Shown piece by piece: positions 1 through 63,933 of a stretch of 63,933 nucleotides of DNA; within the stretch, counting starts at the first letter, position 1; each line of letters starts with the position of its first letter. The notes below the pieces were generated by a model, which saw nothing but the letters and a program-made list of their open reading frames with translations, made no database searches and had not been told where the DNA came from. The translations under genes were made by a program, and so were the position numbers. Source of the stretch: a virus; IMG/VR virus record IMGVR_UViG_3300006059_000003, positions 1-63,933 of that record; one strand, given 5' to 3'.

Positions 1-180
1 CTAGGTAGTATAACATGCAATGTATAACATTTGTATAGTATATAAGGTTATATCGCTGTTATATTATATAACTACTATAATATATACATAATATACATAT
101 ATACTATTATGATATATAGATAATAATATAAACTAAGGTCCAAAAAATACCCCAAAATGTGCAAATTTCCGAAGGGTGTT

Positions 181-209
181 ATACCATTTCGTTTTTTACC
201 GTTTTTATT
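181..209 (-). repeat. 29-base origin-like repeat, left-end copy
   Basis: Read on the minus strand it begins AATAAAAACGGTAAAAAACG. Close relatives are at 39214-39242 (plus), 39446-39474 (minus) and 63635-63658 (plus). The flanking bases of this copy and of 39446-39474 are also similar (GTGCAAATTT... versus GTGCATTTTG...), so a longer unit is duplicated. Confidence 0.75.
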
Positions 210-258: not shown

Positions 259-278
259 GTGAAACATTTTTGTTTCAC
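259..278. repeat. Perfect inverted repeat GTGAAACA-TTTT-TGTTTCAC
   Basis: Arms of 8 bases surround a TTTT spacer. An identical 20-base copy lies at 63397-63416. The arms equal the two half-sites of a bacterial parS palindrome in swapped order. Joined as a circle, the two copies flank the AT-rich junction. Confidence 0.7.
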
Positions 279-6360: not shown

Positions 6361-6382
6361 AATCTAAAAGCCGAACTAAAGA

Positions 6383-7327: not shown

Positions 7328-7345
7328 TTAGGGTTAGGGTTAGGG
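7328..7345 (+). repeat. Three tandem TTAGGG units
   Basis: Exactly three TTAGGG hexamers followed by TATGG. It could fold a weak G-quadruplex; telomere function is not implied. Confidence 0.5.
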
Positions 7346-8858: not shown

Positions 8859-8861
8859 ACG

Positions 8862-8970: not shown

Positions 8971-8991
8971 CTATATAATCTCTATACACAA

Positions 8992-9007
8992 TTCTCTTTC
9001 CAGAGAA
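8992..9007. repeat. Dispersed hairpin in a leader
   Basis: TTCTCTTTCCAGAGAA ends 24 bases before the start codon at 9032. Confidence 0.75.
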
Positions 9008-28476: not shown

Positions 28477-31400
28477 ATGGCAGTAGCCGGAGCATTTACA
28501 GTTGCTCAAATGGTAGCTGTACTATCTGCTGATAGCACTCAATTAGAAAAACGACTTGATAAAGTAGAGTCATTACTTTTACAAACTGCACAAAATGCAG
28601 AAGATATGCGTGACGCTATTGAGAAAGCGGCTACGGGTTCTGCAACAAGTCTTAATAAGTTATTATCTAGTGCAGAAGATACAGAAAGAGGGTTAGCTAA
28701 TCTAGCAGAATTTGAATATCGCACTGGTAAAAAATCTGCGGAAGATTACTCTACATTTCTTTCCCAGAGGATGAACGCCTTCAATACTTTTGAAAGTGAA
28801 TGGCGATCTTCTGCACTTCGTATGGCAGCAGTTGATGCAGATATTGAACGAAAGAAAACCGCACAATATAAAGCTGAATTAGAAATACGTAATAACTTAA
28901 CCAGAGGTTTAGCTATTCGTGGTGGTGCTTCTGCAACAGAATTGAGAAGTGTAGAATCTGCCAACACTTTTGGAGTAATAACTAATACTTCTAATTTATA
29001 CTCTAATGAAGAGAAAATAAGAGCAAGTCAAAGATTTTATCAACTAGAACAGCAACAACGCACAGAAGATGAAGCAGAAGAGAAACGTTATCTAAATACC
29101 CGTTTAGCAGAACTTAAAGCAGAAAGAGACGCAGAAGTTATTGCATCAAGAGAAGCTGATGCTTTAATTATGGCGGCACATAGAGAAGCAGGAGCAGAAT
29201 TTAAGGCTCAACTTCTTTCCCAGGAAGAAGCACAAGCGGCATCGCAAACTAAACGTAAAGCTATTGCAGGAAATATCTCTTCTACTATTCAAAACACAAC
29301 AGCAGGAATTGCAGTAGTTGAAGTAGCTTCTGGAATAATGGCATCTAAGTTTAATTACGACTTACAGACTATTGCTAATAATACCTATATGTCTTCACAA
29401 GAGTTTGAGAATATGAAGAAAGTAACCTTAGATTTATCAAAGTCTACAGGTTCTTCTTTTGACTCTCTAGCACAAGGGTATAGGTTTATTACAGACTTTA
29501 ATTATCGTAATGCTGATGCTACACATATTCTTACTGTAGCTAATAAAGAAGCAGTTGCTACAAATACACAAGTAGAAGCTACAACAAAAACGTTAGCTTC
29601 AACTATGCACATATTTGGTGCAGAAGCTAAAGACGCTGATAGGTATATGGGAATGCTTGATCTTACTGCATCAAGAGGTTCTATTACTATACAGCAACTT
29701 ATTGATAACGTTGGTCCTGCTCTAGCTATTGCGGCAAACTATCATCTAAAGATTGAAGATACTCTTTCTGCACTATCTACTCTTTCTCTTCATGGATTTA
29801 ATGCCTCAGAAGTAACTACACAGATTAAAGGTATTATTAATCATATAGGTGATGCTAGTAAAGGTGCAAGAGAATTTGCTAGAGAACTAGAAAAGATAAC
29901 AGGAGTTCCTTTATCTAAAGATTTTACTGCACAAGGTCTTACTCAAAAAGGATTGCAAGGAGTACTAGCGGATATTCAGCGTGCTACTGGAGGAAATCCA
30001 GAACTTATAGGAAAACTTATTCCTGCTTTACGTGGAGGAGTCGGAGCAAATACTCTAGCAAATTCACTTAAAGAAATGACAGAATTACATACTCAACTAC
30101 AGAGTGTAACAAATGCAAACACAAAAGTAGACGAGAAGTTTAATGCTGTTATGGAAACTTCTGCACAAAAGGTTAAGTCTCTAGTACAGACTATTGAAGC
30201 AGATTTTATTCCTGTAGGTGAAAAAGCTATTGCTTTGTTTGAAAAATGGGAACCATATACCTTACGTTTCTCTAACTTTGTTCTAGGTTTAATGGAGAAT
30301 TTCCAGAAACTTCCAGAACCTATCCAACAAGCAATTACTGTGATTGGTGGACTTTCTCTTCTAAACAAATTTACTGGAATAGGAACTGCTTTAGCAATCC
30401 CAGAAGCAACTATAGCTTCTTTAAAAATGCTTACTTCTATCTTCCCTAGACTTACCCTTGTAGCAGGAGAATCTAGTCTTGCTTTAGGTGTGGCAGGTGC
30501 TACAGAAGCTAGTGTTGGAACTGCTATGACTGCATTTGCTGCAAGTTCTGGACCTGTGTTTCTTGTAATTGCGGCACTAACTGCACTAAGTTGGGAAGGC
30601 TATAATGTTATAGATATGTATAACAAAATGGCTAAAGCACAAGATGATGCCGCAAAGAAAGATAGAGAATTTGCAGAACAAAAAGAGAAGTTTAAGAATC
30701 ACAGTGTTGGTGGATTAATAACTGTAGAAACTCTAGAAGCATCACAGAAACTATCAGACAAGCAGATAGAACTAAAAAGTTTACGTTTCTCTGACGATGC
30801 AGTAAATGTAGCTAAAAAACGTATTCTCCAAAAAGAGATAGCAGATTTAGAGTTACAAATAAAAACAAACAGAGATAAACTTAACTCAGGAACTTTACAT
30901 GAAACTAAATTTGCTACTGCTGATTCTTATGGGATACCTAATAATGGTAGAGAAAATAGTGCTAATCCTCTAGGAGATGTAGTTGCTAGTACTAACTCTT
31001 ATATCAGTGATTCTGTAAATGCTTTAATGTCAGGTAAAGGTCTTACACTTGACATGGTTAATGCTTATATAGAAGCAGATAAAGCGGCAGAAAAAGCACG
31101 TAAACAAGCAGAAGCGGCACGTAAAGAAGCAGAAAAAAGGTATGCACATGAGGTTAATGCGCTACATCTAATTATTAACCTTAAAGAGAAATCGGAAGAA
31201 CTTGATGCACACCATGAAAGAACTAAGGTAGAATCCCTTTTCCAGAAAGGCGGAAGCCTTGCGCTTCTCTCTGGAAAGAAAGGAAATCTACTAAGTATAG
31301 CTGATCTTGCTGATGCTATGGAACATCAGAACTACTTAGATAAGATTATACAACAAGGTAAGGATAGACTTACTATTGGTGGTATGTCTTCTAATGAACA

Positions 31401-33165
31401 AAAAGCTATAGAGATGTTAGGTGGAGGTTCTAAAGGTCTTACTGGATTTAACTCATTAGGTCAAGATCAACGTTCTGATTTCTTGAAACAGGTAAGAGAT
31501 TTAACTGTATCTGGAGAAACTAAGAAAGCAAAAGAAGAGTTAGCAGATTTAAACCTTCAATTAGCATCATTAGGAAATCCTGCTAAACTAGCCGCAATTC
31601 AATCCGTAGCACAAGGTTCCGCTAAAGTATGGAAAGATTTGTCGGATACTTTAAAAGCTGATGCTATTGATGCAGAGAAAGAGAAGTTATCTGCAAAAGG
31701 TATACTTTCTCTTCAAGAAAAATATAATGTACCTATTGCTAATGATACTACTGAGAAAGAAACAGAAGTACAGAAAGCAATAAAAGACATTAATGAGTTA
31801 AAGCAGAATTTAGGTGGATTAGCTTACTCTTATGAAATACTAAAGAGAGGAGGAGAAGGAGCAATTATTGCAGAAGCTGAATTAAGAGATCAAGAAATTG
31901 CGGCTAAAGATGCTTTAGTTCAACGTAAGATTCTCAATGAGACAGTAACAGAAAGTAATAATCATATTAAGGAATTACAGACTAATATGGTTATGATGTA
32001 TTCTCCTTCTCAGAAAGCAGTAATTCAATGGGAAGACACAAACCGTAAAGCAATTAAGGAACTACATAAAGATATTGGTGATCTTGCTGACGAGTATGTA
32101 TTTCTTGCAGAAGCACAAATTGCAAGTAATGTAAACAGAGAAGCAGTAATCAATACCTATAACAACGCTTCTACTTCCCTTGTAGACTCCTTGAAACAAG
32201 CTAATGCAATTAAGTCTAGTGACCCTTTCCAGATATGGCTACAATCATATATGCAGTTACAGCAAACTGTTTCTGCTGATGGTGGTATTTCCTACACTAT
32301 AGGTCTTCCTACTGGAACTGATGTAGGAATTATGAGACAGATTTACGATCAAATCTATCAGATACAACAACAAATAAAACTGTACGATATGATTAAATCT
32401 GGAGAATCTGGACTAGCATCTTCTGTAATGGGTGGACTTAATGCTGCATTTAATCCAGATCAAAGTGTAAGAAGTTCTCTACAGCAAACACTGTTATCAC
32501 AGAAACAACAGTATATGGAGTATCAAGTAGCAGAAGCACAGTACAAACAGAAGTATCCTAATTCTGGTAATGACCCATATATTCAACGTCTGAAAGATTT
32601 ACAGAACATGATAGACGGTACACAGAATAAGATAGACAAGATGGGTAACTCCTTAGTTAATACTTTTAACAGAGCATTTGATTCTATAGTGAAATCTTTT
32701 GAAAACACTTTACAGAAAATGGCTATGGAGTATTTACAGTCTCAATTACTACAGTACATTCAACGTCAAGCAGGGAATCCTTTTGGTGGAAGTACAGGAG
32801 CAAGTAAGGGAAGTGTAGGTTTAATTTCTACAGGAATTAATCTAGGACTACAAGCATGGGGAATGTTTGGTGGAGGAGGTAGTACTGGAGGAACTGGAGT
32901 AGATTATAGTGTTGCCCCATTACCTGATTATGGTGGAAGTGTAGGAACTGGCGGAGTGTGGGACACAGTAAATACTACTGCACTTTCTAGGTCTGTGATG
33001 ATTCCGGGTGCAGGATTCTCTTCCAGAAGAAGCGCGGGTTCCGCGCAAATGATTCAGCATAATCAAATAACTATAAATACTCCAGATACACAAACAATGC
33101 GAAGATCGAGAGCAACAATTCAACAAGAGTTCGCTAAGATAGCCGCAGTACCCTTTAGAAAGTAG
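28477..33165 (+). CDS. Tail tape measure protein (1562 aa)
   Basis: Sets tail length and is probably ejected with DNA. The N-terminal 260 residues are coiled coil; residues 300-560 match the TP901-type core (ASKFNYDLQTIANNTYMSSQ, TTKTLASTMHIFGAEAKDAD, GVGANTLANSLKEM). Hydrophobic segments near 640-705 are likely membrane-penetrating. A KAAEKARKQAEAARKEAEKR helix and Gly-rich C-terminus follow. By the usual rule of about 0.15 nm per residue the tail would be near 230 nm. Three or more hairpin copies occur inside (28763, 31235, 31265). Confidence 0.9.
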   Translation: MAVAGAFTVAQMVAVLSADSTQLEKRLDKVESLLLQTAQNAEDMRDAIEKAATGSATSLNKLLSSAEDTERGLANLAEFEYRTGKKSAEDYSTFLSQRMNAFNTFESEWRSSALRMAAVDADIERKKTAQYKAELEIRNNLTRGLAIRGGASATELRSVESANTFGVITNTSNLYSNEEKIRASQRFYQLEQQQRTEDEAEEKRYLNTRLAELKAERDAEVIASREADALIMAAHREAGAEFKAQLLSQEEAQAASQTKRKAIAGNISSTIQNTTAGIAVVEVASGIMASKFNYDLQTIANNTYMSSQEFENMKKVTLDLSKSTGSSFDSLAQGYRFITDFNYRNADATHILTVANKEAVATNTQVEATTKTLASTMHIFGAEAKDADRYMGMLDLTASRGSITIQQLIDNVGPALAIAANYHLKIEDTLSALSTLSLHGFNASEVTTQIKGIINHIGDASKGAREFARELEKITGVPLSKDFTAQGLTQKGLQGVLADIQRATGGNPELIGKLIPALRGGVGANTLANSLKEMTELHTQLQSVTNANTKVDEKFNAVMETSAQKVKSLVQTIEADFIPVGEKAIALFEKWEPYTLRFSNFVLGLMENFQKLPEPIQQAITVIGGLSLLNKFTGIGTALAIPEATIASLKMLTSIFPRLTLVAGESSLALGVAGATEASVGTAMTAFAASSGPVFLVIAALTALSWEGYNVIDMYNKMAKAQDDAAKKDREFAEQKEKFKNHSVGGLITVETLEASQKLSDKQIELKSLRFSDDAVNVAKKRILQKEIADLELQIKTNRDKLNSGTLHETKFATADSYGIPNNGRENSANPLGDVVASTNSYISDSVNALMSGKGLTLDMVNAYIEADKAAEKARKQAEAARKEAEKRYAHEVNALHLIINLKEKSEELDAHHERTKVESLFQKGGSLALLSGKKGNLLSIADLADAMEHQNYLDKIIQQGKDRLTIGGMSSNEQKAIEMLGGGSKGLTGFNSLGQDQRSDFLKQVRDLTVSGETKKAKEELADLNLQLASLGNPAKLAAIQSVAQGSAKVWKDLSDTLKADAIDAEKEKLSAKGILSLQEKYNVPIANDTTEKETEVQKAIKDINELKQNLGGLAYSYEILKRGGEGAIIAEAELRDQEIAAKDALVQRKILNETVTESNNHIKELQTNMVMMYSPSQKAVIQWEDTNRKAIKELHKDIGDLADEYVFLAEAQIASNVNREAVINTYNNASTSLVDSLKQANAIKSSDPFQIWLQSYMQLQQTVSADGGISYTIGLPTGTDVGIMRQIYDQIYQIQQQIKLYDMIKSGESGLASSVMGGLNAAFNPDQSVRSSLQQTLLSQKQQYMEYQVAEAQYKQKYPNSGNDPYIQRLKDLQNMIDGTQNKIDKMGNSLVNTFNRAFDSIVKSFENTLQKMAMEYLQSQLLQYIQRQAGNPFGGSTGASKGSVGLISTGINLGLQAWGMFGGGGSTGGTGVDYSVAPLPDYGGSVGTGGVWDTVNTTALSRSVMIPGAGFSSRRSAGSAQMIQHNQITINTPDTQTMRRSRATIQQEFAKIAAVPFRK

Positions 33166-35229: not shown

Positions 35230-38190
35230 ATGGCTACTTTAGTCTTAGGTGTGGCAGGTGCAGTAGTTGGAGGTATTGCTACAGGAGGTTCTCCACAAGG
35301 GATAATGTTAGGTTGGTCTGTAGGAGCTACATTAGGTGGTTTTATAGATCAATCAAAGCAACACTTCTATACTTCCGATATGGGTAAACTATCAGACCTA
35401 AGAGTTACTGTAGCCTCTTATGGTTCTTTTATTACTCAGGCTTTTGGGCATGTTAGAGTTCCTACATCGCTAATATGGGGAACTGATTTTGTAGAACACG
35501 AATCAGATGTAAATAGTGGAGGAGGTTCGGGTGGTCCTAAAGTAACTACACGAACTTATGCTTATACTGTATCTTTTGCAATAGCTATTTGTAAAGGTCA
35601 AGCATCTACATCTACTATGACTATCACCAAAATCTTTGGTGATGATTTACTTATATATGATTCCTCTCTTGCTAATACAGAAACTAATATTATAGATTCT
35701 TCTTCTGTACATTCTGGAAAAGAAATTAATCCTGTTGTTGGATTTGATGGATTAAGTATTAGATGGTATTGTGGTAATGAGACACAAGATGCAGATTCGT
35801 TAATGGTAGTTTCTGCTGGTACTACAGCTTTACCTGCTGGTTCTGATAATCCTGCATTTAGAGGATTGTGTTATGCAGTATTTCAAGATTTACCACTAGC
35901 TAAATTCGGAAACAGAATTCCTAATATTAGTGTAGAACTTTCTACTCCTGATAACCTTTCGACAATAGTAAATCAGATAACAGATCAAGTTGGGATTAAT
36001 CTTTCAGGTGGTCCTTATGGTACTCTAGTAACTACTACTATAGCAGGAATAACTATAGGTGGTATGCTAATTTCCAGTAGAATAGATTGTAAAAGTGCAT
36101 TACAAGCGTTAATGGATTTTTATGATTTCGATATAGTAGAAATCGATGGAAGTGTAACTTGTATACTTCGTGGAGCAAGTACTATTGCAACACTATCTTA
36201 TGTTGATATGGGATATACTTCTGTAGGTTCTGGACCTGCACCTGAAATACAAAGACTAATAAAAACTAGACAAGATACTTCTACTCTTCCTTCCAGAGTA
36301 GACGTAGGCTACCTAAGTTCTAATATAGATTATCAGAACGCAACACAAGCGGCATTAAGGTTAAGTGCTAGACATAATAACTTTGCTTCTTTTCAGTATC
36401 CCTTAGTTCTTACAGACGATCAAGGTAGACAATTCGCAGAGCGAAAGCTGTATATTCTCTGGGTGGAAAAAGAGACATATCAGATTTCAGTATCCCCTTC
36501 TTTTGCTAATCTAGTTCCTACAGATTGCCTTATGATTCAGATTGATTCTTATGGTAATACTCAACGTGCAAGAATTACAGAACTAGAAGGAGGTTCTCTA
36601 GGAGAAATAAAACTCACTTTAGTAAAAGATGAAGATGCAGTTTATACACAAAGTATTACGGGTACTACTCCTACCGGAGGAACTACAGGAGTTCCGGTAG
36701 TAACGACTGACTTCTTTGTATGGTCTGGTACGGAACTCTCTGATACTGACAGTACCTCTCCTGGCTTCTACGTTGCCGTTTCAGGTGCCTCCGGGTGGCA
36801 AGGCGGGATAATTTACGTTTCCGTAGGTGGAGGAGCGTATACGGCGGTAGGGACGATTTCTCAAAGATCGGTTTTTGGAACTGTAAGTAATGTATTAGGG
36901 AACACTTATGTCCCTGATGGGAATGGATTTGATGTAACAAATACTTTAAATGTCATAACTAATGGAGTACTTAATTCTACAGATGAAAACTCTGTATTAA
37001 ATGGATTAGGTAATTATGGTTTACTAATGGATTACATTGGTAATAATTCTCCATTAACTTCTTATGAGATTTTTGGATTCGATACTGCTACACTAACTTC
37101 TACAAACCACTATACCTTATCAGGATTTCTTCGTTCCCAGAGAAATACTGTAGTAACTGGACACCTCTCCACAGATAGATTCGTGCAGTTAAGTTCTGCT
37201 ATCCAGAGAATTATTGTTGCAGAAAATCTAATAGGCCAGGATATTAATGTTAAGGTAGCTTCTCCATCAGTCGATCTAACTACGGTAACTGCACAGACTA
37301 TTAAAATTGCTACACCTTCTCATATTTATGCTTCTCCTGCTGATGCAACTTCTGCGGCTAATGCAACACGTACTCCCTATTGGAGAATTAGAGGATACTT
37401 AGGTGGACATAAGGGAGTCCTAGATTCTACATACTTCCTGGCAAGTAACGGTACTCCCCAAGCTAATCATCAATATACTACATTTACTGTAGTAATAAGT
37501 ACTACTGGATTAATAACAGGTTCTTATACTATTACAGTAAATGATATAACTAAAGCTAGTTCCCAAACTGCTACTATTCTAGTAACAGATACTACAGCAA
37601 ACATAAAGACAAAAATAGAAGCATTGTCTAATGTAGGAGCAGGAAATACTTCTATTACTGGAACTCCTACAAACTACACTCTAACTTTTACTGGTACTTC
37701 TATCTTTATTGACCTAATAAAGATAACTTCAAATAGTTCTGGTATTGGAGGGTTGCTGACTTCTTTTGTACAAACTTATGTAGAAGGTACACACGATAAA
37801 TTCTGGCAAGAATCATCCTTATCTCCTATAGATGTTTCATGGCGATATGAAACACCTGGAATGGGATACAACATGTATGCCAGAATTAATATAAAAAATA
37901 CGACAGGCTCTACTAAGTCGTTTAATTGGTGGATTCCAGCGTTTGATAATCACATGGTAGTAATAATTAATGGAACCACAGTATTTTCGGATGGTGTAAT
38001 AACTTCGGGAGAAACTACAGATGCTACACAAACCGGGGGTCCGATTGCAGTAACAGCAGGAACAACCTATTTGATAGAGATTTTCTACAGTAATAATCCT
38101 GCTACTTATGACCCTACAGATCAAGGAGTAGTAACATTTATTACAGATGCTTTAGCAAATGGTTTAACGTGGGTAGATGCAGGAGTTTAA
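35230..38190 (+). CDS. Tail-tip / receptor-binding protein (986 aa)
   Basis: Central tail fibre-like protein of the gp15/TipJ class: the N-terminus has Gly/Ala helices (VLGVAGAVVGGIATGG) then GKLSDLRVTVASYGSFITQAF, as in that family, and residues 285-430 resemble its phage-tail domain. Residues about 745-845 contain the same beta domain as the protein at 19712 (TANIKTKIEALSNVGAGNTS...). Bases 36690-36870 are clearly richer in GC than the rest and encode a short beta-rich insert, a sign of domain exchange. Confidence 0.8.
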   Translation: MATLVLGVAGAVVGGIATGGSPQGIMLGWSVGATLGGFIDQSKQHFYTSDMGKLSDLRVTVASYGSFITQAFGHVRVPTSLIWGTDFVEHESDVNSGGGSGGPKVTTRTYAYTVSFAIAICKGQASTSTMTITKIFGDDLLIYDSSLANTETNIIDSSSVHSGKEINPVVGFDGLSIRWYCGNETQDADSLMVVSAGTTALPAGSDNPAFRGLCYAVFQDLPLAKFGNRIPNISVELSTPDNLSTIVNQITDQVGINLSGGPYGTLVTTTIAGITIGGMLISSRIDCKSALQALMDFYDFDIVEIDGSVTCILRGASTIATLSYVDMGYTSVGSGPAPEIQRLIKTRQDTSTLPSRVDVGYLSSNIDYQNATQAALRLSARHNNFASFQYPLVLTDDQGRQFAERKLYILWVEKETYQISVSPSFANLVPTDCLMIQIDSYGNTQRARITELEGGSLGEIKLTLVKDEDAVYTQSITGTTPTGGTTGVPVVTTDFFVWSGTELSDTDSTSPGFYVAVSGASGWQGGIIYVSVGGGAYTAVGTISQRSVFGTVSNVLGNTYVPDGNGFDVTNTLNVITNGVLNSTDENSVLNGLGNYGLLMDYIGNNSPLTSYEIFGFDTATLTSTNHYTLSGFLRSQRNTVVTGHLSTDRFVQLSSAIQRIIVAENLIGQDINVKVASPSVDLTTVTAQTIKIATPSHIYASPADATSAANATRTPYWRIRGYLGGHKGVLDSTYFLASNGTPQANHQYTTFTVVISTTGLITGSYTITVNDITKASSQTATILVTDTTANIKTKIEALSNVGAGNTSITGTPTNYTLTFTGTSIFIDLIKITSNSSGIGGLLTSFVQTYVEGTHDKFWQESSLSPIDVSWRYETPGMGYNMYARINIKNTTGSTKSFNWWIPAFDNHMVVIINGTTVFSDGVITSGETTDATQTGGPIAVTAGTTYLIEIFYSNNPATYDPTDQGVVTFITDALANGLTWVDAGV

Positions 38191-39122: not shown

Positions 39123-39154
39123 AGTCCAACCACGTCCGGTTGGGCTTTTTTTTG
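39123..39154 (+). terminator. Terminator closing the virion gene block
   Basis: AGTCCAACC pairs with GGTTGGGCT (one G-U) and a run of T follows. Confidence 0.85.
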
Positions 39155-39213
39155 TCTAATTTCTCTGTATATCTATTAATCTGTTATACTGTATTAAGGA
39201 AATTTAGGTGACG

Positions 39214-39242
39214 AATAAAAACGGTGAAAACCGAAAGCATAT
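39214..39242 (+). repeat. 29-base origin-like repeat, left arm
   Basis: Begins AATAAAAACGGTGAAAACCG and is followed by CATATAGTAC, which also follows the related element at 63817-63850. Confidence 0.75.
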
Positions 39243-39445
39243 AGTACTCCGAACATGCAAAAAGTCGATTTCTAAGAAGTTAATCTAATTCTTACACCTT
39301 TCTCTTTATATAATATCTGATCTAATATATTAGTATAATTAGTATATTGTTGTTATACGATAACTACATATAACTATATACTATATACTATATGATATAT
39401 ATGTTAATGTTATAGCAAAAATTGTGCATTTTGCATTTTGGCATT

Positions 39446-39474
39446 ATACCGTTTCGTTTTTCACCGTTTTTATT
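39446..39474 (-). repeat. 29-base origin-like repeat, right arm
   Basis: The minus strand begins AATAAAAACGGTGAAAAACG, nearly identical to the left arm and to 181-209. Confidence 0.75.
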
Positions 39475-39523
39475 CCCGCTTAATAACAGATATGTTACTA
39501 GATATACAGCGAAATTACCCGAC

Positions 39524-39552
39524 TTGACAAGTATGTTTCAATGTGGTAGAAT
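39524..39552 (+). promoter_or_regulatory. Strong sigma-70-like promoter of the replication module
   Basis: TTGACA at 39524-39529, exactly 17 bases, TAGAAT at 39547-39552, 30 bases before the first start codon. It likely drives the genes from 39583 onward. Confidence 0.8.
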
Positions 39553-39582: not shown

Positions 39583-40893
39583 ATGTTAGTCAAAATGTCA
39601 AAGTCTTCTGTAGCTTCTGCAATCAATTCAAGACGATCTAAGAAGGTAACTGTAAAGACTACAGCTACAGTTAAACTAGTAGAAGATACTGTAAAAATTG
39701 TGAAGAATCCTTCGCCACGTAAGCCTGATAGTAGAATCTGCGGATATAACTTTGTAGATAAAGATATTTGCGGATTACCAGAATATCATCATGGTCCTCA
39801 CCAAACTGTAGAAAAATCAGAAGTTCCTATTAAAGTAGTTAGACGTACAGAAACTAACTGCCCTATGGTTGCAAAGTTTGATACTAAGATTGCAGGAAGT
39901 CTTACAGATATTATCTTTGCATGGTGGTTATTAGGAAATCCAGTATCTACTCCATTAGAAATATCTTTAGATATTTACTCTAAAGGATTAAAATTTGAAA
40001 ATGAGATAAACAGTTTTCCTGCTGTACATTCTCTAGTATTTCTAGGGTATATGGAGACTATAGAATGGACTGCCGCTAATCGTATTTCTCGCTGTAATAA
40101 ATACAAATTAACGAAGGAAGGTATAAAAATTGCAGAAACAATCTCGCAAAAAACGGGTACTAATCAAATTGTGGTACAAAACGAAAAAACAAATACAAAA
40201 GAATCCACAGAATCAGATTGCGATTTGTGTGAAGGAACTGGATTTAACGAAGATAATGGAGAATCCTGTAAAAAATGTAAAGGAACAGGAGTGATTAAAA
40301 CGAAGGTTAGTAATTCTCTTCCAGAGAAGGTTCGGCAACCGGAAATTGTAATGAGTACTACAATGGTTGAGTGTATTAATTGCGATGGAACAGGAGTAGC
40401 TGGAGAAACTATTTGTCCTATTTGTAAAGGGACGGGAGAGCGAGAAGGTAAGGTAGAGCCTAAGAAAATACAAGTAAAGGTTAAACCTATACTAGCTACT
40501 CCTATAGTTTATAATAAGCTAATAGATAAGGGTATCCCAAAAGATGTAGTTTATATAGGTCGTCCTTCTAAGTACGGTAATCCTTACAAATTAACTACAA
40601 ATACTTATGCAGAACGACAAACAGTAATTGAAAAGTTTCGGAAGTATGCAGAAAATAGATTACAGAAGGAACCTAATTGGTTAGACGAATTGAAAGGAAA
40701 GAGTGTGGTTTGTTTTTGCGCTCCTAAATTGTGTCATGGTGATGTACTTATAGAACTTGCAAATAAAGAACAGAAGGTAATACAGTTATCTAAAGAACCT
40801 ATAGATTGTAAGTATTGTAAGGGAACTGGAATGTCTACAATAACTACAGATGGAATGTGCCGACGATGTAAAGGAACAGGTGAAAGTAAATGA
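39583..40893 (+). CDS. Multidomain zinc-finger and DUF4326 protein (436 aa)
   Basis: Domains in order: a basic N-terminus; a small Cys/His zinc site (CGYNFVDKDICGLPEYHHGP); a winged-helix-like region near 95-190; two DnaJ-type CxxCxGxG pairs (CDLCEGTG, CKKCKGTG, CINCDGTG, CPICKGTG); DUF4326 at about 318-395 (VYIGRPSKYGNPY, CFCAPKLCHGD); and one more CxxCxGxG pair at the end. NSLPEK sits between domains, from the hairpin at 40314-40328. DUF4326 is linked to nucleotide or DNA-processing loci, but its reaction is not established. First gene of the replication module. Confidence 0.75.
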   Translation: MLVKMSKSSVASAINSRRSKKVTVKTTATVKLVEDTVKIVKNPSPRKPDSRICGYNFVDKDICGLPEYHHGPHQTVEKSEVPIKVVRRTETNCPMVAKFDTKIAGSLTDIIFAWWLLGNPVSTPLEISLDIYSKGLKFENEINSFPAVHSLVFLGYMETIEWTAANRISRCNKYKLTKEGIKIAETISQKTGTNQIVVQNEKTNTKESTESDCDLCEGTGFNEDNGESCKKCKGTGVIKTKVSNSLPEKVRQPEIVMSTTMVECINCDGTGVAGETICPICKGTGEREGKVEPKKIQVKVKPILATPIVYNKLIDKGIPKDVVYIGRPSKYGNPYKLTTNTYAERQTVIEKFRKYAENRLQKEPNWLDELKGKSVVCFCAPKLCHGDVLIELANKEQKVIQLSKEPIDCKYCKGTGMSTITTDGMCRRCKGTGESK

Positions 40894-41067: not shown

Positions 41068-41103
41068 AAGACTGATGCTTTTTAAGTGTCGGTCTTTTTC
41101 TTG
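41068..41103 (+). terminator. Probable terminator
   Basis: AAGACTGAT... pairs with GTGTCGGTCTT (with G-U pairs), followed by TTTCTT. It contains a GTG in frame with the next gene, which therefore more likely starts at 41131. Confidence 0.6.
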
Positions 41104-41130
41104 CGTCAAAGAATACAAAATCAGGTTATA

Positions 41131-42564
41131 ATGAAGTTAGTAAAAGTTAAATATAAAAAATACAGAACACTAATGAAACATCAACAAGATTTCATTAGTT
41201 GGGGATTAGAAAAAACCCATGTACCTAATCTAATGGATTTAAGGTTAGGAAAAACATTAAGTACTATTCGATTGATAAAGGAATGGACAGATGCAGAAAC
41301 TAATAATAATCCTGAGAACAGCACTTTTCCTGTACTTATTGTTGCGCCTTCTGCTGTACTAGAGACTTGGGAAAAAGAACTACGGTTAGAGTATGAGCAA
41401 TATGTAATCCTTCAAGGTAAAACATTTGATAGACGATCTACTCTAGCAGTTAAAGAGGGGTTCGGAATCTCTGGAAGAAGATGGATACTGATAAACTACG
41501 AATCACTTTTGTACACTCCCGGTATAGCTTTCCTTCCATGGTTTAGTGTAGTAAGTGATGAAAGCGTAATTATTAAAAATCCTAAATCCAAAATCTCTCA
41601 ACTATTTACTAAAGGATTTCATGAAGTTAAACATAGAGTAATACTTACTGGACTTATATCACCCGAAGGAGAGTTAGATATTTTCCAGCAAATGTATTTT
41701 CTATATAGAGAATTCATGGGTTGCACTAATTACTACGAATACAGAGCAAAATACTTTCGTTTACAATGGGATGGTTGGGCATGTAAACCGTCGGCAAAAC
41801 TACAGATTGAAAATGCCGTCCATGCCACTTCTTTTGCCCTCACACGAACGCAAGCAGGTATAGGCAATAAAAAGGTCCGGCAGGTACGAAAAGTCTCTCT
41901 CACGACCGAACAACAGAAAATCTATGACCGTATAGAAAAGGACTTTGTTTCAGAAGTAAAAGGACTAGAAGTAGAAACTGACCATGCTACTACTAAGTCT
42001 ATATGGTTAGCAAGAATTACAGGAGGTTGTGATACAGAAGGTACTTTCAAATGGAATCCTAAACTACAAGAATTACTGTATCTTCTTAAATACGAACTAA
42101 GTAAAGAACCTGTAGTAGTATGGTGTAGGTTTGATACAGAAATAAAAATGATAGCAGATACTTTACTAAAGAAGAAGATACCCTGCACTACTTTAACAGG
42201 TGAAGATACTAGAGAAACTAAAAAGAAGAAACAGGAATGGTTTAGAACTTGTTCTGTTCCAGGGAGAGTAATTATCTGCCAGGAAATGAAAGTCGCCGAA
42301 TTCGGAGTCAACATGTCTGCATCTTCTACAGCAGTTTACTATTCCTTTGTGTATTCTGGAAATACTATAGCACAAACAGAAGATCGTATAGAAGACCCTA
42401 TGAAGAAACAACCTTTATTATACATCTACCTTGTAGCAGAAGGAACTGTAGATGAAGATGTTGTAGAAACTATACGAGATAAAGTAAGATCGGCGAAACA
42501 GTTTATGGCAGGATTTAATTCAAGATTTAGAAAAAGGATTATGGAAAAATATGCAACAAAATAA
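41131..42564 (+). CDS. SNF2/DEAD-like helicase (477 aa)
   Basis: Superfamily 2 ATPase for DNA remodelling. Motif I is MDLRLGKT (35-42), motif Ia PVLIVAPSAVLETWEKEL, motif II SDES near the centre, a TGL motif III, and the second lobe shows VVWCRFDTEIKMI, MKVAEFGVNMS and QTEDRIED as the motif VI equivalent, where the arginine finger pattern differs slightly (RIED). The ATG at 41131 is preferred over the upstream GTG inside a terminator. Overlaps the next gene by 14 bases. Confidence 0.85.
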   Translation: MKLVKVKYKKYRTLMKHQQDFISWGLEKTHVPNLMDLRLGKTLSTIRLIKEWTDAETNNNPENSTFPVLIVAPSAVLETWEKELRLEYEQYVILQGKTFDRRSTLAVKEGFGISGRRWILINYESLLYTPGIAFLPWFSVVSDESVIIKNPKSKISQLFTKGFHEVKHRVILTGLISPEGELDIFQQMYFLYREFMGCTNYYEYRAKYFRLQWDGWACKPSAKLQIENAVHATSFALTRTQAGIGNKKVRQVRKVSLTTEQQKIYDRIEKDFVSEVKGLEVETDHATTKSIWLARITGGCDTEGTFKWNPKLQELLYLLKYELSKEPVVVWCRFDTEIKMIADTLLKKKIPCTTLTGEDTRETKKKKQEWFRTCSVPGRVIICQEMKVAEFGVNMSASSTAVYYSFVYSGNTIAQTEDRIEDPMKKQPLLYIYLVAEGTVDEDVVETIRDKVRSAKQFMAGFNSRFRKRIMEKYATK

Positions 42565-43207
42565 ACCTAAAATGTTCATCTGTTTAGACCCAGGACTTAG
42601 TAGATTTCCTGGTGGTACTGGTTGGGCATTGTTTAATTCAATTTCTACTCATATAGTTCCAGTAGAAACTGGACTAATAACAACCAGAGTCGTCAAACTT
42701 TCCTGGGAAGAAAGAGTATCAGAGATTTGTAAAAGAGTACACCATGATTTAGTTCCTAAACTAAGATGGTGTGGAGTAGTGCATGGTAAAGTGTATATAG
42801 AACTTCCTACACTATTCCTATCAGCTAAAGGAATGACTTGTGCTTCTGGTAAGAATGGTGGAGATTCTGACCTTGTTAAACTAGCTTTTCTTGTAGGTAG
42901 TTTATCTGAAATATTTAGAGAATTCGATATACCTGTACAACTTATTCGTGTGAACGATTGGAAAGTTCAACTAAATGATAAACAAGTAGAAGATCGTGTA
43001 GAAAATAGATTAGGTGTTCTAAAAGGGCAGTTACCTTATTCTATTCACGAAACTTGTGCAGTTGCTATGGGTCTGTGGGTCAAAGGAAGTTTCAAAGCTA
43101 ATGAAGGAAGAATACAAAATACAGGAACAAGAGCAACCAAAGGTAAAGAAATCACAGAAATCTTCAATACCATTACAAATGTTAGAACTAGAAAAAGAGT
43201 GGAGTAA
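42551..43207 (+). CDS. RuvC-like nuclease (218 aa)
   Basis: RNase H-fold resolvase-type protein. LDPGLS (Asp13), YIELP (Glu84) and the HETCAVAMGLW helix near the C-terminus correspond to the usual acidic residues; the last DA pair is replaced by HETCA, so the metal site is unusual. It probably cuts branched DNA before packaging. AAAAGGA lies upstream. Confidence 0.7.
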   Translation: MQQNKPKMFICLDPGLSRFPGGTGWALFNSISTHIVPVETGLITTRVVKLSWEERVSEICKRVHHDLVPKLRWCGVVHGKVYIELPTLFLSAKGMTCASGKNGGDSDLVKLAFLVGSLSEIFREFDIPVQLIRVNDWKVQLNDKQVEDRVENRLGVLKGQLPYSIHETCAVAMGLWVKGSFKANEGRIQNTGTRATKGKEITEIFNTITNVRTRKRVE

Positions 43208-43928: not shown

Positions 43929-44172
43929 AGAAATTAGACCTAGAATGGTAGTTACTGAGATAAAAGTTTCCTTTCTGAAAGATACAGAGGAAATTGGTAT
44001 AGAAGTTTCCTATGAAGACCAAAAAATATACATCTCTTTTGAATTATGGGAACTTATTAGAGAATTCTACTTTAATAGTGTACCAAAACAACAACTAATT
44101 ACAAATATAGAGAATGTATACGGTACAGATAAACAAATAGAAGACTTTGAAAGAAGTCAGAAATTAAGGTGA
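43915..44172 (+). CDS. Hypothetical protein (85 aa)
   Basis: Alpha/beta product (VVTEIKVSFLKDTEEIGIEV...ELWELIREFY) that overlaps the glycosylase gene by 14 bases. No family is recognised. Confidence 0.65.
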   Translation: MAIPEEIRPRMVVTEIKVSFLKDTEEIGIEVSYEDQKIYISFELWELIREFYFNSVPKQQLITNIENVYGTDKQIEDFERSQKLR

Positions 44173-44177
44173 TAATT

Positions 44178-45356
44178 ATGGCAACAGTTAAAGTAAAGAA
44201 AAGAATAATACAGAATATAGTAAATTCTGTTTCAGTTAAGGACAGTATTCCTTCTCTTCCAGAAAGAGTGAAGCGAGTATTGGCGAAACCGCTTCCTGTA
44301 ATTTCTGGAGAAGAATCCTACTATTGGTTGCTTTCCCGCGACGGCATAACGCAAAGTGCAATTTCTGTATATGAAGAATGTCCTAGGAAGTTACAGTATA
44401 AATTACGAGAAGGATTAACTAAAGGAACTTCAGATCACAGTCTTGATTTTGGAAATATGTTCCATCATATTCTGGATAAATGCTACAGTAGTATAAAAAC
44501 TTTTCCAGTAAGAAAAGGTATAAATCCTAAGACAGCATGGACTACTATAATAAATCAAGCATGTAAAGAATACTACTATAAACAATCTAAAGACTTAGAT
44601 GTAAAAGATACTCAAAAATTTGAATTAATGTTCGGAACATGTAAACTGATGTTAGAACATTATTTCGATTGGTGGGGAAAAGAAGATTTAAGTCTAAATT
44701 TTGTAGGAGTAGAACAGCTTTTCGATGTACCCTATACCCTTCGTAATGGGGTAAAAATTAGACTTAGAGGGAAGATAGACGGTATCCTAAAAATAGACGG
44801 AGGATATTGGATTCTTGAAAACAAAACAAAAGGAAGTATAGATGATATAGGTGCATATTCTGTTAATGGAGTAGTAGAGTCTATGGGGTACAATCTACAG
44901 GTTCTTTTCTACTGTCTTGCAATCAAGGGAGTGTATGGAGTATATCCAAAAGGTGTAATCTATAATCTTATTAAAAGACCCGGACAGGAATTTAAAGGTA
45001 CATTCAATAGAAAGCCAGAAACTCTCCCTGAATACTATGAAAGAATTAAGAAAGATATTGCAGAAAAGATAGTAGAAGTAGGAGGAAAGAAATTCAATCC
45101 ATACCTTCTTCGTTATCATGTAAGAATTACAGAAGAAGAGATTCAAACATGGTCATTACAAGATTTTGATTCTGTAATAGAGGAAATATACCAATGGGAT
45201 ATGCAGAATCTCATTTCCAGAAGAGTACAGGCAAGCTGTTTTATGTTTCGGAAACCATGCGAATTCCTAGACATATGTTCCTCTGGAAGTAAAGTCGGAT
45301 ATTCTAAAAGAGAACACGTATTTCCTGAATTAGTTTCTGAGGAGGAAGATGAATAA
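44178..45356 (+). CDS. PD-(D/E)XK nuclease, RecB/Cas4-like (392 aa)
   Basis: Nuclease for recombination or end processing. SAISVYEECPRKLQYKLREG and FGNMFHHILD mark the N-terminal part (the His is typical), then GKIDG with Asp201 and ILENKTKG with Glu214 and Lys216 give the catalytic triad, followed by a helix with QVLFYCLA. A C-terminal Cys pair (CEFLDIC) and Cys near the N-terminus could hold an iron-sulfur cluster. The start at 44178 is preferred because AAGGTGA is 5 bases upstream. Its N-terminus begins MATVKVKKR and includes SLPER from a partial dispersed hairpin. Confidence 0.85.
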   Translation: MATVKVKKRIIQNIVNSVSVKDSIPSLPERVKRVLAKPLPVISGEESYYWLLSRDGITQSAISVYEECPRKLQYKLREGLTKGTSDHSLDFGNMFHHILDKCYSSIKTFPVRKGINPKTAWTTIINQACKEYYYKQSKDLDVKDTQKFELMFGTCKLMLEHYFDWWGKEDLSLNFVGVEQLFDVPYTLRNGVKIRLRGKIDGILKIDGGYWILENKTKGSIDDIGAYSVNGVVESMGYNLQVLFYCLAIKGVYGVYPKGVIYNLIKRPGQEFKGTFNRKPETLPEYYERIKKDIAEKIVEVGGKKFNPYLLRYHVRITEEEIQTWSLQDFDSVIEEIYQWDMQNLISRRVQASCFMFRKPCEFLDICSSGSKVGYSKREHVFPELVSEEEDE

Positions 45357-46066: not shown

Positions 46067-46993
46067 ATGGCAACGGTAATAAATCGTTCCGGCGGTAGAG
46101 TATCCACAGTCAATAAACCAAAACCAGTTAGTAGAAAATCTACAAAAACACCAATCCCCACAATAGATACAGATGTTGACTTGACAATACCAGATGAACC
46201 ATGTGAACCGGAATACGACCTAAGTACTTGTACTTTCGTATTACATGGAGAGGAAGGTATAGGAAAAACATCAGTAGCACGTGAATTTCCTTCTCCTCTA
46301 TTTCTTATGTTTGAACCTGGTGGTAAGTTTCTTAGTATGTCCCGTATACCACGCAACGGACAGTTTTCTAAATGGTCGCAATTTGTAAAGGTAATAGACA
46401 ATCTATTAAAGTCTGATACTTATAGGACTGTAGTTATAGATACTGTTGATTTGTGTTATATACTTTGTGAACAGCATATTTGTGAAGAAAATGTAGAACA
46501 ACATATTAATGACGGTTCACTAGGGTTCAATCGTGGAAATGACAAAGCAGAGTTTGAATTCAAGGAACAAATTCTACGCATAACAGGAAGTGGTAGAGGA
46601 GTAATCTTTATATCTCATAGTAAATCTGTAGAATTTGAAAAATCAACAGGTGTAAAACATACAAAAATAATTCCTACTATGAAAGATCGTGTTCGTCGGT
46701 TCCTCAAAGGTTTTGTTGATATGACAATGTATTTTGGTTATTCTGGTAATAAACGAATACTAACTATAGAAGGTTCCGACGATGTTGATGCTAAAAATAG
46801 AATGGGAAGTGCAGGTAGATTCTTCACACCTAAAGGAGAAGCAATTCGTTCTGTAGATATGGGAGATTCTGCACAAGAAGGTTATGATAATTTCTTAAAG
46901 GCTTTCAACAATCAACAAGTTGACCCAGGCGATGATGTAAGAACTGCACGTCTCTCTGAGGTAAAAGCAAAATTTGCAGTTAAAAAGAAATAA
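46067..46993 (+). CDS. Sak4-like RecA-fold ATPase (308 aa)
   Basis: Recombinase of the AAA_24/Sak4 type, which supports single-strand annealing and replication. Walker A is GEEGIGKT (61-68), Walker B is VVIDTVD, and GVIFISHSKS is the sensor strand. The C-terminus is basic. The neighbouring SSB-like gene is the usual partner. The first 45 residues are a basic Ser/Thr/Pro extension. Confidence 0.8.
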   Translation: MATVINRSGGRVSTVNKPKPVSRKSTKTPIPTIDTDVDLTIPDEPCEPEYDLSTCTFVLHGEEGIGKTSVAREFPSPLFLMFEPGGKFLSMSRIPRNGQFSKWSQFVKVIDNLLKSDTYRTVVIDTVDLCYILCEQHICEENVEQHINDGSLGFNRGNDKAEFEFKEQILRITGSGRGVIFISHSKSVEFEKSTGVKHTKIIPTMKDRVRRFLKGFVDMTMYFGYSGNKRILTIEGSDDVDAKNRMGSAGRFFTPKGEAIRSVDMGDSAQEGYDNFLKAFNNQQVDPGDDVRTARLSEVKAKFAVKKK

Positions 46994-54561: not shown

Positions 54562-57500
54562 ATGGTTTATATAAAGAAAGACAATATGAAAGTTCCTGCT
54601 GTACTTCGTCCGTTTATAAGGTTAGGTTTTGTGTATGATGAAGAGAAAGTATCAGGTGTAAATGTAAGAGGAGATTGTATCTTCTGTGGTAAAGTAGATA
54701 AATTTTACATACGTATAGAAGACGGTATAGGAAGTGATGGTAAGGAAAAGAAAGCGGGAATGTGGGATTGTAAATCCTGTCAGAAACTAGGGAATGTATA
54801 TTCCTTTATGAAGTTCTGGTATGATTTTTGGTTAGAAGAAAGGAAAAATTACAGTAAACAGTTTATAGAATTATCCTTAGATAGAGGAGTACCTGCAAAA
54901 ACTCTAAAAGATGCAGGAATTGTATATGACAATGACCAATTTGCTATTCCTGTAAGAAATGCAACAGGAACTATAAACAACTTCCGTTTCTACAATTTCT
55001 TTGGTAAAATTCCTAGAGGCAAAAAGAAACATCAACTCTATGGAATGCCGGAATTAGACAGTCAACTGTATGGTATGGATTCTCTTTTCCAGGGAGTAGC
55101 ACGCGGAATTCAGAAAGTGTATATCTGCTATAGTGCTGATACTGAAATTCTTACAGAAGAAGGTTGGATAAAATTTCCTACCCTTAAAAATCAAAAAGTA
55201 GCGCAATATGCAGAGAACACTCAGAATATAACTTTTGTAAAACCTCTAGCAAAACAGATTTTACCATATAGTAAGAAGATGGTAAATATAAAGGGTAATT
55301 CTTGTGACTTACTTGTAACTCCTGAACATAGAGTTCTTATAAAAGAAACAGATGGTATAAGAACTATACGTGCAGATCAAGTAAAGTCAGGAATGGTACT
55401 TCCTGTTTCTGGAGAATATAGAGGTAAAGGTTATTCTCCTAGTAATAACGAAGTAAAGCTACTTGTAGCTTATGCAGCTGATGGTCATAAAGAAAGAGGT
55501 AATAGACGTGCCTGGGCTTTTAAGAAAGAACGTAAAGTAAGTAGATTAATTGAGATACTAGAGTCATTAGAAATTCCGTACAAATTTGGTGGACTTTCTG
55601 CTAAAGGGTATACTCAAATAGTTGTTATGGCTTACGATGCTCCTATTCTTGACAGGATTATGCCTACTAAGCAGATAACTTCTGACTTTATTCACTGGTC
55701 TGTAGAAGCTAGAGAAACTCTAATTAATGAGTTAAGATTTTGGGACGGTGATACTGTCAGTAAGTACACACATAGAGTGTTTAGTGCAGATAAAGTACAA
55801 GTAGATGCTATCTCTTCCATATGCGTAACTACTGGATATAGTTGTAATATAAGAGAGGATACTAGAAAAAGCAGTATAAACTATATACTAAACATATCAC
55901 CTAGGAAGTATAGAAATGTAACTTCAGTTACTACACAAAGAAATATAACTAATAAAGTTTACTGTGTTACTGTACCTACAGGTACGGTAGTAGTAAGACG
56001 TAATGGGAAAATAGTTATCTGTAGAAACTGCGAGGGCGAATGGGATACTATAGCCTTAGAGTATCTATTAAGTAAAGAAAGTGTAGAAGCTATAGTTGTA
56101 GGAACTCCAGGTGCTAATACATGGAAAGCGTCTTGGAACAAATGTTTCTCTGGAAAGGAAGTTACTATATGTTATGATGTAGGAAGTGAAGGTGAGAAAG
56201 GTACAGAGAAAGTTTATCATAACCTAAAAGATATAGTAAGTAAGAGTAGTCCAATTAAGTATATTAATTGGAGTAAGAAAGGTGACTTACCTGATGGTTA
56301 CGATGTAAGAGACCATATAAAGCAAGGAGGAACTTATGAACAGTTTATACAGCTTGAAGAGAAATATACGTCTATCCCTGTAAAGGAAGAACAGAAACAA
56401 ACTGAGATAGAAAATACTCCTACTCTTCAAGAAGTCCAACAATCTAAATCACTATCTGCTAAACGCCCTACTTTTGAGAAGGTCTTAAAAGCCTATAGAA
56501 AGTATTTGTTTATGGATAAGGATATGGAGAATGGACTCAGGATAATGTTTGCTACTTGTCTTACTGTAGGAATAAAAGGTGACCCTCTATGGGTACATAC
56601 TATTGGCCCTCCTGGTAGTGGAAAAACTGCATTACTTATGTCTCTATCTAAGGTGAAGATAGTAGTATCTAAATCTTCTATTACAAGAAATGTACTTGTA
56701 TCTGGTATGAATGTCCATCCAGACCCTTCGTTAATTCCTAGACTTAATGGTAAACTATTTGTCTTTAAAGATTTTACAGAGTTGTTAGGTATGAGAAGTG
56801 ATGACAAGGAGTTTATATTTTCTACACTTAGAGGAGTGTATGATGGTACACTTGAAAAAGATCACGGCAACGGAACACAAAGAGATTTCAAATCTCACTT
56901 CAATATGCTTACAGGAGTAACTCAAAAGATATTCACAGAAAATAGATCAATCATGGGTGAAAGATTTCTTCTGTACCATATGGTAAAAGGTACAGATTAT
57001 GACAGTCGTAATCCTGTAATGGCGGCAATAGATTCTGTGGGTAGTGAAGTACCAATACATGAAGAACTTGTAGGAATTGCGGCAGAGTATCTTGATGTTA
57101 GAGTAAGTAAGGAAGATATACCAGTAATTCCTCAACATTATAAAGAGAAGATATACTCTCTAGCATGTCTTACTTCGTTATTACGTGCTACTGTGGAAAG
57201 ACTGTCAAAGGTAGATAGGAAGTTAATGCTACGTCCACAACAAGAAATGCCTACACGAATTGCTAAACAGCTAACTAAACTCCTTATGGGATTATCTCTA
57301 CTAAATACTCCAATACAGTATACTCAGGAAGACATAGCATTAGTTACTAGAGTAGCATTAGATTCATGCGTAGCATTTAACCTTGAAACAGTATCTTCGT
57401 TAATACAGAAACCAGGACAAACATTAGTCGATCTAGCAATAGATTCTAATATTCCACACTCTACATTAAGAGATCACATTGAAGATTTAGTAGAGTTAGG

Positions 57501-57717
57501 AGTTATCCGTTATGTAGCTGGAGAAACTACAAGTGACTTTCAAGGAAGAGGTAGAAAACCACACACTTACTATGTAACACCTAAGATGGAGAAAATATGG
57601 AAAGACGCTTCTCTGGAAAGAAAAGACGGTGAAGTATATATGAAGTTAAAATCTCTTTTCCAGAGAAATGTAACGCAATCGACGCAATCGCAGAAAGTAA
57701 AGGTAAAGCGAAAATGA
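54562..57717 (+). CDS. Primase-helicase with intein (1051 aa precursor)
   Basis: Replication protein: zinc finger (C39, C42 and CKSC near 70), Toprim core, ATPase, and a C-terminal winged helix (SNIPHSTLRDHIEDLVELGV). An intein (55126-56028, 301 residues) interrupts the Toprim strand VYI|CEGEWDTIAL; removal restores CEGEWD with the catalytic Glu. The helicase has GPPGSGKT (682-689) and KLFVFKDFTEL as Walker B. The spliced product would be about 750 residues. The last bases contain a hairpin copy (57652) and the protein ends KVKVKRK. Confidence 0.85.
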   Translation: MVYIKKDNMKVPAVLRPFIRLGFVYDEEKVSGVNVRGDCIFCGKVDKFYIRIEDGIGSDGKEKKAGMWDCKSCQKLGNVYSFMKFWYDFWLEERKNYSKQFIELSLDRGVPAKTLKDAGIVYDNDQFAIPVRNATGTINNFRFYNFFGKIPRGKKKHQLYGMPELDSQLYGMDSLFQGVARGIQKVYICYSADTEILTEEGWIKFPTLKNQKVAQYAENTQNITFVKPLAKQILPYSKKMVNIKGNSCDLLVTPEHRVLIKETDGIRTIRADQVKSGMVLPVSGEYRGKGYSPSNNEVKLLVAYAADGHKERGNRRAWAFKKERKVSRLIEILESLEIPYKFGGLSAKGYTQIVVMAYDAPILDRIMPTKQITSDFIHWSVEARETLINELRFWDGDTVSKYTHRVFSADKVQVDAISSICVTTGYSCNIREDTRKSSINYILNISPRKYRNVTSVTTQRNITNKVYCVTVPTGTVVVRRNGKIVICRNCEGEWDTIALEYLLSKESVEAIVVGTPGANTWKASWNKCFSGKEVTICYDVGSEGEKGTEKVYHNLKDIVSKSSPIKYINWSKKGDLPDGYDVRDHIKQGGTYEQFIQLEEKYTSIPVKEEQKQTEIENTPTLQEVQQSKSLSAKRPTFEKVLKAYRKYLFMDKDMENGLRIMFATCLTVGIKGDPLWVHTIGPPGSGKTALLMSLSKVKIVVSKSSITRNVLVSGMNVHPDPSLIPRLNGKLFVFKDFTELLGMRSDDKEFIFSTLRGVYDGTLEKDHGNGTQRDFKSHFNMLTGVTQKIFTENRSIMGERFLLYHMVKGTDYDSRNPVMAAIDSVGSEVPIHEELVGIAAEYLDVRVSKEDIPVIPQHYKEKIYSLACLTSLLRATVERLSKVDRKLMLRPQQEMPTRIAKQLTKLLMGLSLLNTPIQYTQEDIALVTRVALDSCVAFNLETVSSLIQKPGQTLVDLAIDSNIPHSTLRDHIEDLVELGVIRYVAGETTSDFQGRGRKPHTYYVTPKMEKIWKDASLERKDGEVYMKLKSLFQRNVTQSTQSQKVKVKRK
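55126..56028 (+). other. Intein with LAGLIDADG-type endonuclease in the primase
   Basis: Begins CYSADTEILTEEGW (block A) and ends NGKIVICRN followed by the extein Cys. LLVTPEHRVL is block B. LLVAYAADGH and LINELRFWDGD are the two LAGLIDADG motifs of a homing endonuclease. The penultimate residue is Arg rather than the usual His. Length 301 residues. Confidence 0.85.
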
Positions 57718-63396: not shown

Positions 63397-63416
63397 GTGA
63401 AACATTTTTGTTTCAC
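63397..63416. repeat. Perfect inverted repeat, right copy
   Basis: GTGAAACATTTTTGTTTCAC, identical to 259-278. Confidence 0.75.
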
Positions 63417-63634: not shown

Positions 63635-63658
63635 AATAAAAACGGTAAAACACGAAAG
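63635..63658 (+). repeat. Origin-like repeat, right-end copy
   Basis: Begins AATAAAAACGGTAAAACACG. Same orientation as 39214 and opposite to 181-209, so the joined ends form an inverted pair. Confidence 0.7.
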
Positions 63659-63816
63659 CGGAAAAATTGGAATTAATTTTTGTTAAAATGCAGAAAAAGA
63701 ATGAAAAATGTAAAATTCTACTTTACACTTTTAGGTGTAGAAATTGTGATCTAAATAAAATTCACCTATCAAATAATGTCAATAATTATCAATATAGATT
63801 TACTATTGGCTATAGG

Positions 63817-63850
63817 AATTAAAGTGGTGAAACACGAAACCATATAGTAC
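63817..63850 (+). repeat. Second origin-like element, right end
   Basis: GGTGAAACACGAAACCATAT and the following AGTAC match 39224-39247 (GGTGAAAACCGAAAGCATAT), so the similarity to the 39.2 kb block extends beyond the 29-base repeat. Confidence 0.6.
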
Positions 63851-63933
63851 ACAAAAGCAGAGTTTCTAACTCAAGCAAGTAAGCTATGACTCTGTAGATA
63901 TAATATACATAAAATATGCGCGTTATAATATAT

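Follow-up and report, generated by a model that had tools for sequence, protein, structure and literature searches.

A possible replication origin and a diverged second site, both built from inverted 34-bp arms, in an orphan tailed phage

In Bacillus phage SPP1, two origins (oriL and oriR) combine repeats with an A/T-rich unwinding element and are served by one initiator, and the second site has been proposed to stall a replication fork and to lead in this way to recombination-dependent concatemer synthesis (PMC6316719, PMC3485210). In the herpes origin OriS, an A/T-rich spacer lies between inverted boxes, and two bound dimers are believed to destabilise it (PMC12543377). Here we describe an arrangement with features of both in the IMG/VR virus record IMGVR_UViG_3300006059_000003, a stretch of 63,933 bases (the window, analysed at its full length) from a tailed phage. 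It consists of a nested dyad around an A/T-rich core, termed Block I (39157-39517), and of related repeats at the two ends of the record, termed Block II, which exists only if those ends join. We put the probability that Block I is a theta origin and Block II a second site for the same protein, taken as one whole reading, at about 0.5. For most uncultivated phages we know of no described origin, and to our knowledge the switch to packageable concatemers has been detailed for few phages, SPP1 being an example. A dyad-type origin at two sites, for which a candidate initiator can be named, would offer a testable case for both the start of phage replication and the concatemer switch.

The likeness to SPP1 is that two distant, related sites place repeats beside an A/T-rich element, the second site here needing the end join, and that a phage exonuclease (phrog_1218/PF12705) and an annealing recombinase (phrog_124) are encoded here as well. 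In SPP1, however, one origin lies within the gene for the initiator (G38P, gp38) and the sites are about 12-13 kb apart, whereas the blocks described here are intergenic and lie about 24.6 kb apart by the shorter route round the circle. SPP1 also has a DnaB-type helicase, while no match to a G38P-type initiator, a helicase loader or a DnaB-type helicase was found among the open reading frames (ORFs) of the replication module. The likeness to OriS and OriL of herpes simplex, which work with OBP (UL9), is one of anatomy only, in that inverted boxes surround an A/T spacer and more than one such site is present per genome (PMC12543377); the virus is unrelated, and its spacer is far shorter than the core seen here, which is 193 bp or more. 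No relative of OBP was found, and the kinship to OBP of the SNF2-type SF2 ATPase listed in Table 1 was not examined. Satellite phage P4 has ori1 and crr, which go with its alpha protein and hold multiple decamers, and the P4 repeat begins GGTGAAC, which is reminiscent of GGTGAAAAC in this phage. As a difference from P4, GGTGAACA occurs only once in this genome and outside the blocks, and no sequence relation to the alpha protein is shown here.

The repeat unit of both blocks is a 34-bp arm, AATAAAAACGGTRAAAMMCGAAANSRTATARYRC, of which the window has five copies and no more. A 12-mer within the arm, AATAAAAACGGT, has four exact copies, at 39214(+), 39463(-), 63635(+) and 198(-), and with one mismatch allowed it has five matches against 0.64 expected, a count reached in 0 of 100 shuffles. 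To avoid circularity, we scanned all 63.9 kb with a 34-bp matrix derived from nothing but the pair of Block I arms; the other strong matches were 176-209(-) at 37.5 bits, 63817-63850(+) at 34.1 and 63635-63668(+) at 22.4, with the next at 5.2. Given that the end copies are the sole other strong matches, the arms are exclusive to the two blocks. When the matrix was made from all five arms, these scored 41-50 bits, the next match 3.3 and the shuffle maximum 5.9. The exact copies and the matrix scans together bear out two statements of an earlier reading made from the letters by themselves (the sequence-only reading), namely that repeats face each other around an A/T-rich core at 39214-39474 and that the same repeats stand in the same order at both ends of the record (63635, 63817 and 181-209, the last being part of the 34-mer at 176-209). 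Among shorter words, CATATAGTAC is found exactly at 39238 and 63841 only, and TGTTATA is enriched locally in the blocks (7 versus 0.9). No match to an Rfam family was found. A transposon-like element was ruled out, as the copies do not have identical arms and inspection by eye showed no target duplication, and so was an assembly fold-back, as the dyad arms are 87-91% complementary and not identical.

Block I is larger than had earlier been described, because an outer inverted pair of 23 nt (91%) extends it to both sides; the core of this pair, the 18-mer AATTTCNCTGTATATCTA, is exact at these two places only. The outcome is a nested dyad of 361 bp whose symmetry, in a gapped half-against-half alignment, runs from 39157 to 39517, and which in a genome-wide scan of 400-bp windows scored 112 against 62 for the next non-overlapping window. 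The core is also easily melted. Using nearest-neighbour energies (genome mean 1.240, standard deviation 0.061, over 100-bp stretches), we found the least stable 100 bp of the window in the core of Block II (34-133, 0.949) and the second least stable in that of Block I (39306-39405, 0.963). The least stable 150 bp are 39273-39422, and the two cores rank first and second at 60, 100 and 150 bp. With replication genes adjoining, these long, exclusive inverted sites and the easily melted DNA between them point to the anatomy of an initiator-dependent origin.

Block I is situated at the edge of the replication module, between it and the virion module. Since it is bounded by an intrinsic terminator and a sigma-70-like promoter (Table 1), it is probably outside transcription units. 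The promoter stands upstream of the first gene of the replication module (39583), and this adjacency makes transcription control the main rival explanation for Block I. Here the arms would be operators or unusual promoters of a phage regulator acting on the operons to the right of each block, and the A/T core would be a side effect. Such an explanation can draw on the near-consensus promoter directly beyond Block I at the start of the replication operon, on the rightward gene sets that follow both blocks, and on the TATA-like hexamers (TATAGT, TATAAT) in which the arms terminate. However, the arms lack a TTGACA-like element at a spacing of 16-18 bp, the motif does not occur at other promoter-like sites, and a 361-bp dyad round the least stable DNA exceeds the needs of an operator. 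Block II is explained poorly, the first strong rightward promoter past it being at 1006, about 800 bp from the arm, and on balance we consider transcription control unlikely, though still worth taking seriously.

The scenario that we favor is that Block I would be the replication origin of a tailed phage replicating as a circle. A phage-encoded initiator would bind to the 34-bp arms in their inverted arrangement, possibly to the outer pair as well, and once bound would distort and melt the A/T-rich core and load replication forks; the two-fold symmetry of Block I would suit a bidirectional start. Block II, with the ends joined, would give this protein a second, diverged site and may act either as (i) a late or secondary origin or (ii) a barrier with bound protein, at which a fork stalls and recombination-dependent concatemer synthesis is started. 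A switch of the latter kind would use the Sak4-like annealer and the exonuclease of the phage, as proposed for oriL and oriR of SPP1. The initiator is probably the primase-helicase-like protein encoded at 54562-57717 or a partner of it, judging from motifs and from matches that are all weak (Toprim_2, E 0.012; HTH_24, E 0.0007; phrog_47 DNA primase). Its architecture comprises a zinc-finger-like N-terminus, a Toprim domain interrupted by an intein-like insert, an AAA-type Walker A motif (GPPGSGKT) and a C-terminal winged helix. A second candidate for the block-binding protein is the product of 39583-40893, the first gene past Block I. This product has DnaJ-type zinc-finger repeats and DUF4326, and its N-terminal part is without a database match. 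More tentatively, we suggest that the phage may represent an isolated lineage with paired, non-equivalent sites, in which a nested-dyad origin of 361 bp shares its asymmetric 34-bp arms and one new initiator with a reduced copy, which would be a programmed switch from circle to concatemer.

Our reasoning with regard to the second site turns on the join of the record ends. The join is supported by the fact that the arms and a 20-bp palindrome, GTGAAACATTTTTGTTTCAC (one on each side of Block II), are found in the same order at the two ends. Each end is intergenic and falls within or next to the least stable DNA that the record contains; taken with the repeat order, the simplest reading of this is that the molecule is circular or circularly permuted and that its assembly broke within the core. 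Block I aligned with the joined ends at a score of 76, against a maximum of 46 in 300 shuffles, and the likeness that had been claimed is therefore not a matter of A/T content alone. Core against core, the score was 62 against a maximum of 60 in 300 shuffles, marginally above composition. The flanks are not alike: the GTGCA match put forward in the sequence-only reading falls away as not significant alone (p about 0.19), and the left flank beyond the arm (p 0.17) and the outer flanks (p 0.07 and 0.85) gave similar answers. What had been called a second copy is thus a diverged, related copy and not an equivalent one. The dyad alignment revealed no outer pair in Block II, the true partner of 176-209 is the arm at 63817, and the arm at 63635 is an outlying additional one, so that a full nested dyad stands against inner arms plus one extra arm. 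This non-equivalence would speak for one main origin (Block I) with an accessory site (Block II) rather than for a pair of equal origins. It had further been stated that the copies separate the virion and replication modules, which holds for Block I, whereas Block II divides the replication module from the leftmost module of small genes and not directly from the virion genes.

A database note ties the record to the IMG/VR linear (no end repeats) class. If the genome were linear there would be no second block, and the arms at the ends would be terminal inverted signals, telomere-like or for packaging, with an internal copy in Block I. The arms near the two ends are indeed mutually inverted, and no overlap between the ends is visible. 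Yet outside the arms the two ends show no pairing of the kind expected of a hairpin or of inverted terminal repeats (p 0.74 for the outer arms, p 0.05 for the whole), and each of them breaks off within or next to the least stable DNA, where an assembly gap would be expected; we consider a linear genome very unlikely. Two related blocks in the same orientation, in a genome encoding a Sak4-like annealer, could also be sites of site-specific or homologous recombination that resolve the genome into two circles or aid circularisation. This was among the functions offered by the sequence-only reading, but searches of the ORFs against PHROGs and Pfam, which left out some small ORFs and some in the virion half, found no integrase or recombinase, and the copies have no shared run of 14 identical bases. 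We regard recombination sites as highly improbable; the origin that was proposed alongside them is the most likely function.

Several points weigh against an origin with a second site as outlined above. The end join is likely but unproven, and the repeats of SPP1 are direct while those of this phage are inverted. No initiator homologue was recognised, and the AlphaFold model of the candidate initiator, made without an alignment, has a pLDDT of 33. No IHF site is present in Block I or Block II and there is no IHF enrichment. Strand skew cuts both ways. Four-fold-site GC skew is -0.03 over 39-64 kb, +0.09 over 0-8 kb and -0.14 over 8-39 kb, and its sign weakly fits an origin at about 39 kb with the terminus around 8 kb, the two nearly facing each other on the circle. 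However, AT skew has the opposite sense, the sharpest switch is at 8 kb and not at 39 kb, and skew is confounded by gene module; because AT skew opposes GC skew and both track the modules, we treat skew as weak evidence. There is no clear skew break at the ends, where the last 4-kb bin is negative with only 46 G or C sites. With respect to other origin types, TTWTCCACA is absent, even with one mismatch, from 39157-39517 and from 63520 to 884 across the joined ends, and no DnaA-dependent, oriC-type cluster of DnaA boxes beside a DNA unwinding element was found. Likewise, no direct-repeat family was found in Block I, which lacks the several direct iterons of an iteron-type origin.

The main rival location for an origin is the 1.8-kb intergenic region at 6361-8183. 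This region contains four inward-facing octamers of the TGTTTCAC/GTGAAACA type, two parS-like sequences (6897-6912, CGTTCCACGTGGAACA, and 7642-7657), one TTATCCACG box and a repeated ACTAAGGT, and four-fold-site GC skew flips sign at its right edge. The octamer TGTTTCAC has nine copies in the window against about two expected (maximum 6 in 60 shuffles), with sites at 259-278, 6684, 6716, 6977, 7256, 63397-63416 and 63827, all of them intergenic and either at the ends or at 6.4-8.2 kb; it may be a second exclusive control motif, one resembling the half-sites of ParB parS. If the true origin were here, Blocks I and II would be fork barriers, terminators or attachment sites. The length of the gap, its third-ranking low stability (7119-7218), the TGTTTCAC half-sites, parS-like sequences and TTATCCACG box, and the skew switch at 8 kb, almost opposite Block I on the circle, are all consistent with this. 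On the other hand, the sign of GC skew at 8 kb suits a terminus better, the DnaA-box match is a single mismatched copy, and, among the strongest dyads of the genome, none that could match Block I lies in this region. We consider it distinctly unlikely that replication starts here rather than at Block I.

The phage is an orphan, without a close relative in the collections searched, from which near records may be missing. IMG/VR scans with single proteins (the 39583 product, the tail protein, the DNA polymerase, the terminase and the SNF2-type helicase) returned no close relatives, and in a terminase alignment the only kin were at 33% identity or less, with the arms in none of those loci. The full arm pattern has no exact match in IMG/VR. 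A shorter arm pattern gave 61 single matches there, all without a partner, and the arm pattern gave 5 unpaired matches in bacterial genomes of scattered phyla; these matches are chance. Searches of both blocks against phages with blastn gave nothing beyond short, weak matches, all at E 0.1 or worse. That no relative carrying the block was found in these collections also counts against the origin proposed above, and as a consequence the function of the block is inferred.

Table 1. Positions of the elements of Blocks I and II and of selected genes in the window.
Feature	Position	Strand	Basis or remark
Intrinsic terminator, left boundary of Block I	39123..39146	+	9-pair stem and T run; promoter/terminator scan
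Block I, outer left dyad arm TAATTTCTCTGTATATCTATTAA	39157..39179	+	91% complementary to 39495-39517
Block I, inner left 34-bp arm	39214..39247	+	motif and matrix scans
Block I, A/T-rich core, proposed DNA unwinding element	39248..39440		nearest-neighbour stability
Block I, inner right 34-bp arm, inverted	39441..39474	-	
Block I, outer right dyad arm	39495..39517	-	
Sigma-70-like promoter, right boundary of Block I	39524..39552	+	TTGACA-17-TAGAAT, 11/12
Palindrome GTGAAACATTTTTGTTTCAC, left flank of Block II	63397..63416		exactly two copies in window
Block II, extra left arm, without TATA half	63635..63668	+	motif and matrix scans
Block II, inner left 34-bp arm	63817..63850	+	motif and matrix scans
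Block II, core, left part, to record end	63851..63933		sequence
Block II, core, right part	1..175		nearest-neighbour stability
Block II, inner right 34-bp arm, inverted	176..209	-	motif and matrix scans
Palindrome GTGAAACATTTTTGTTTCAC, right flank of Block II	259..278		exactly two copies in window
Terminase	15494-17419		
Portal	17289-18956		
Major head protein	20601-21722		
Tape measure (candidate), 1562-amino-acid ORF	28477-33165		by length and position; no database match sought
Tail protein, GTA TIM-barrel kind	35230-38190		
SNF2-type SF2 ATPase	41086-42564		
PD-(D/E)XK exonuclease	44169..45356	+	PF12705 E 1.6e-18, phrog_1218
Sak4-like single-strand annealing protein	46067..46993	+	phrog_124 E 6e-33
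Primase-helicase-like protein, 1051 amino acids, candidate initiator	54562..57717	+	weak matches and motifs read from translation

The genes of the phage are apparently all on the plus strand. Small unassigned genes make up the leftmost module (about 1.1-6.4 kb), virion genes occupy about 9-39 kb, and a replication and nucleotide module extends from 39583 to 63345. The last of these holds the SNF2-type helicase, a UDG-superfamily protein, the PD-(D/E)XK nuclease, the Sak4-like annealer and PolA, together with the interrupted primase-like protein, an intein-bearing ThyX and a dCTP deaminase. The ThyX gene (58700-60511) carries an intein with an intein splicing domain, NUMOD4 and HNH. A reading by eye of 42551-43207 as RuvC-like was unsupported by searches, and no tRNA was found in the window. 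The gene at 8184-8858, right after the 6.4-8.2 kb gap, is C-rich, with a GC skew of about -0.27 over 8001-9000, and a PHROG match was sought for it and none found. Two further repeats are scattered more widely: an imperfect palindrome, TTCTCTtTCCAGAGAA, recurs at 6585, 7056, 8994, 13041, 38892 and 40303 among other positions, often near gene starts, and CTCTTTCCAGAGA, with up to two mismatches, has 19 matches against 2.4 expected.
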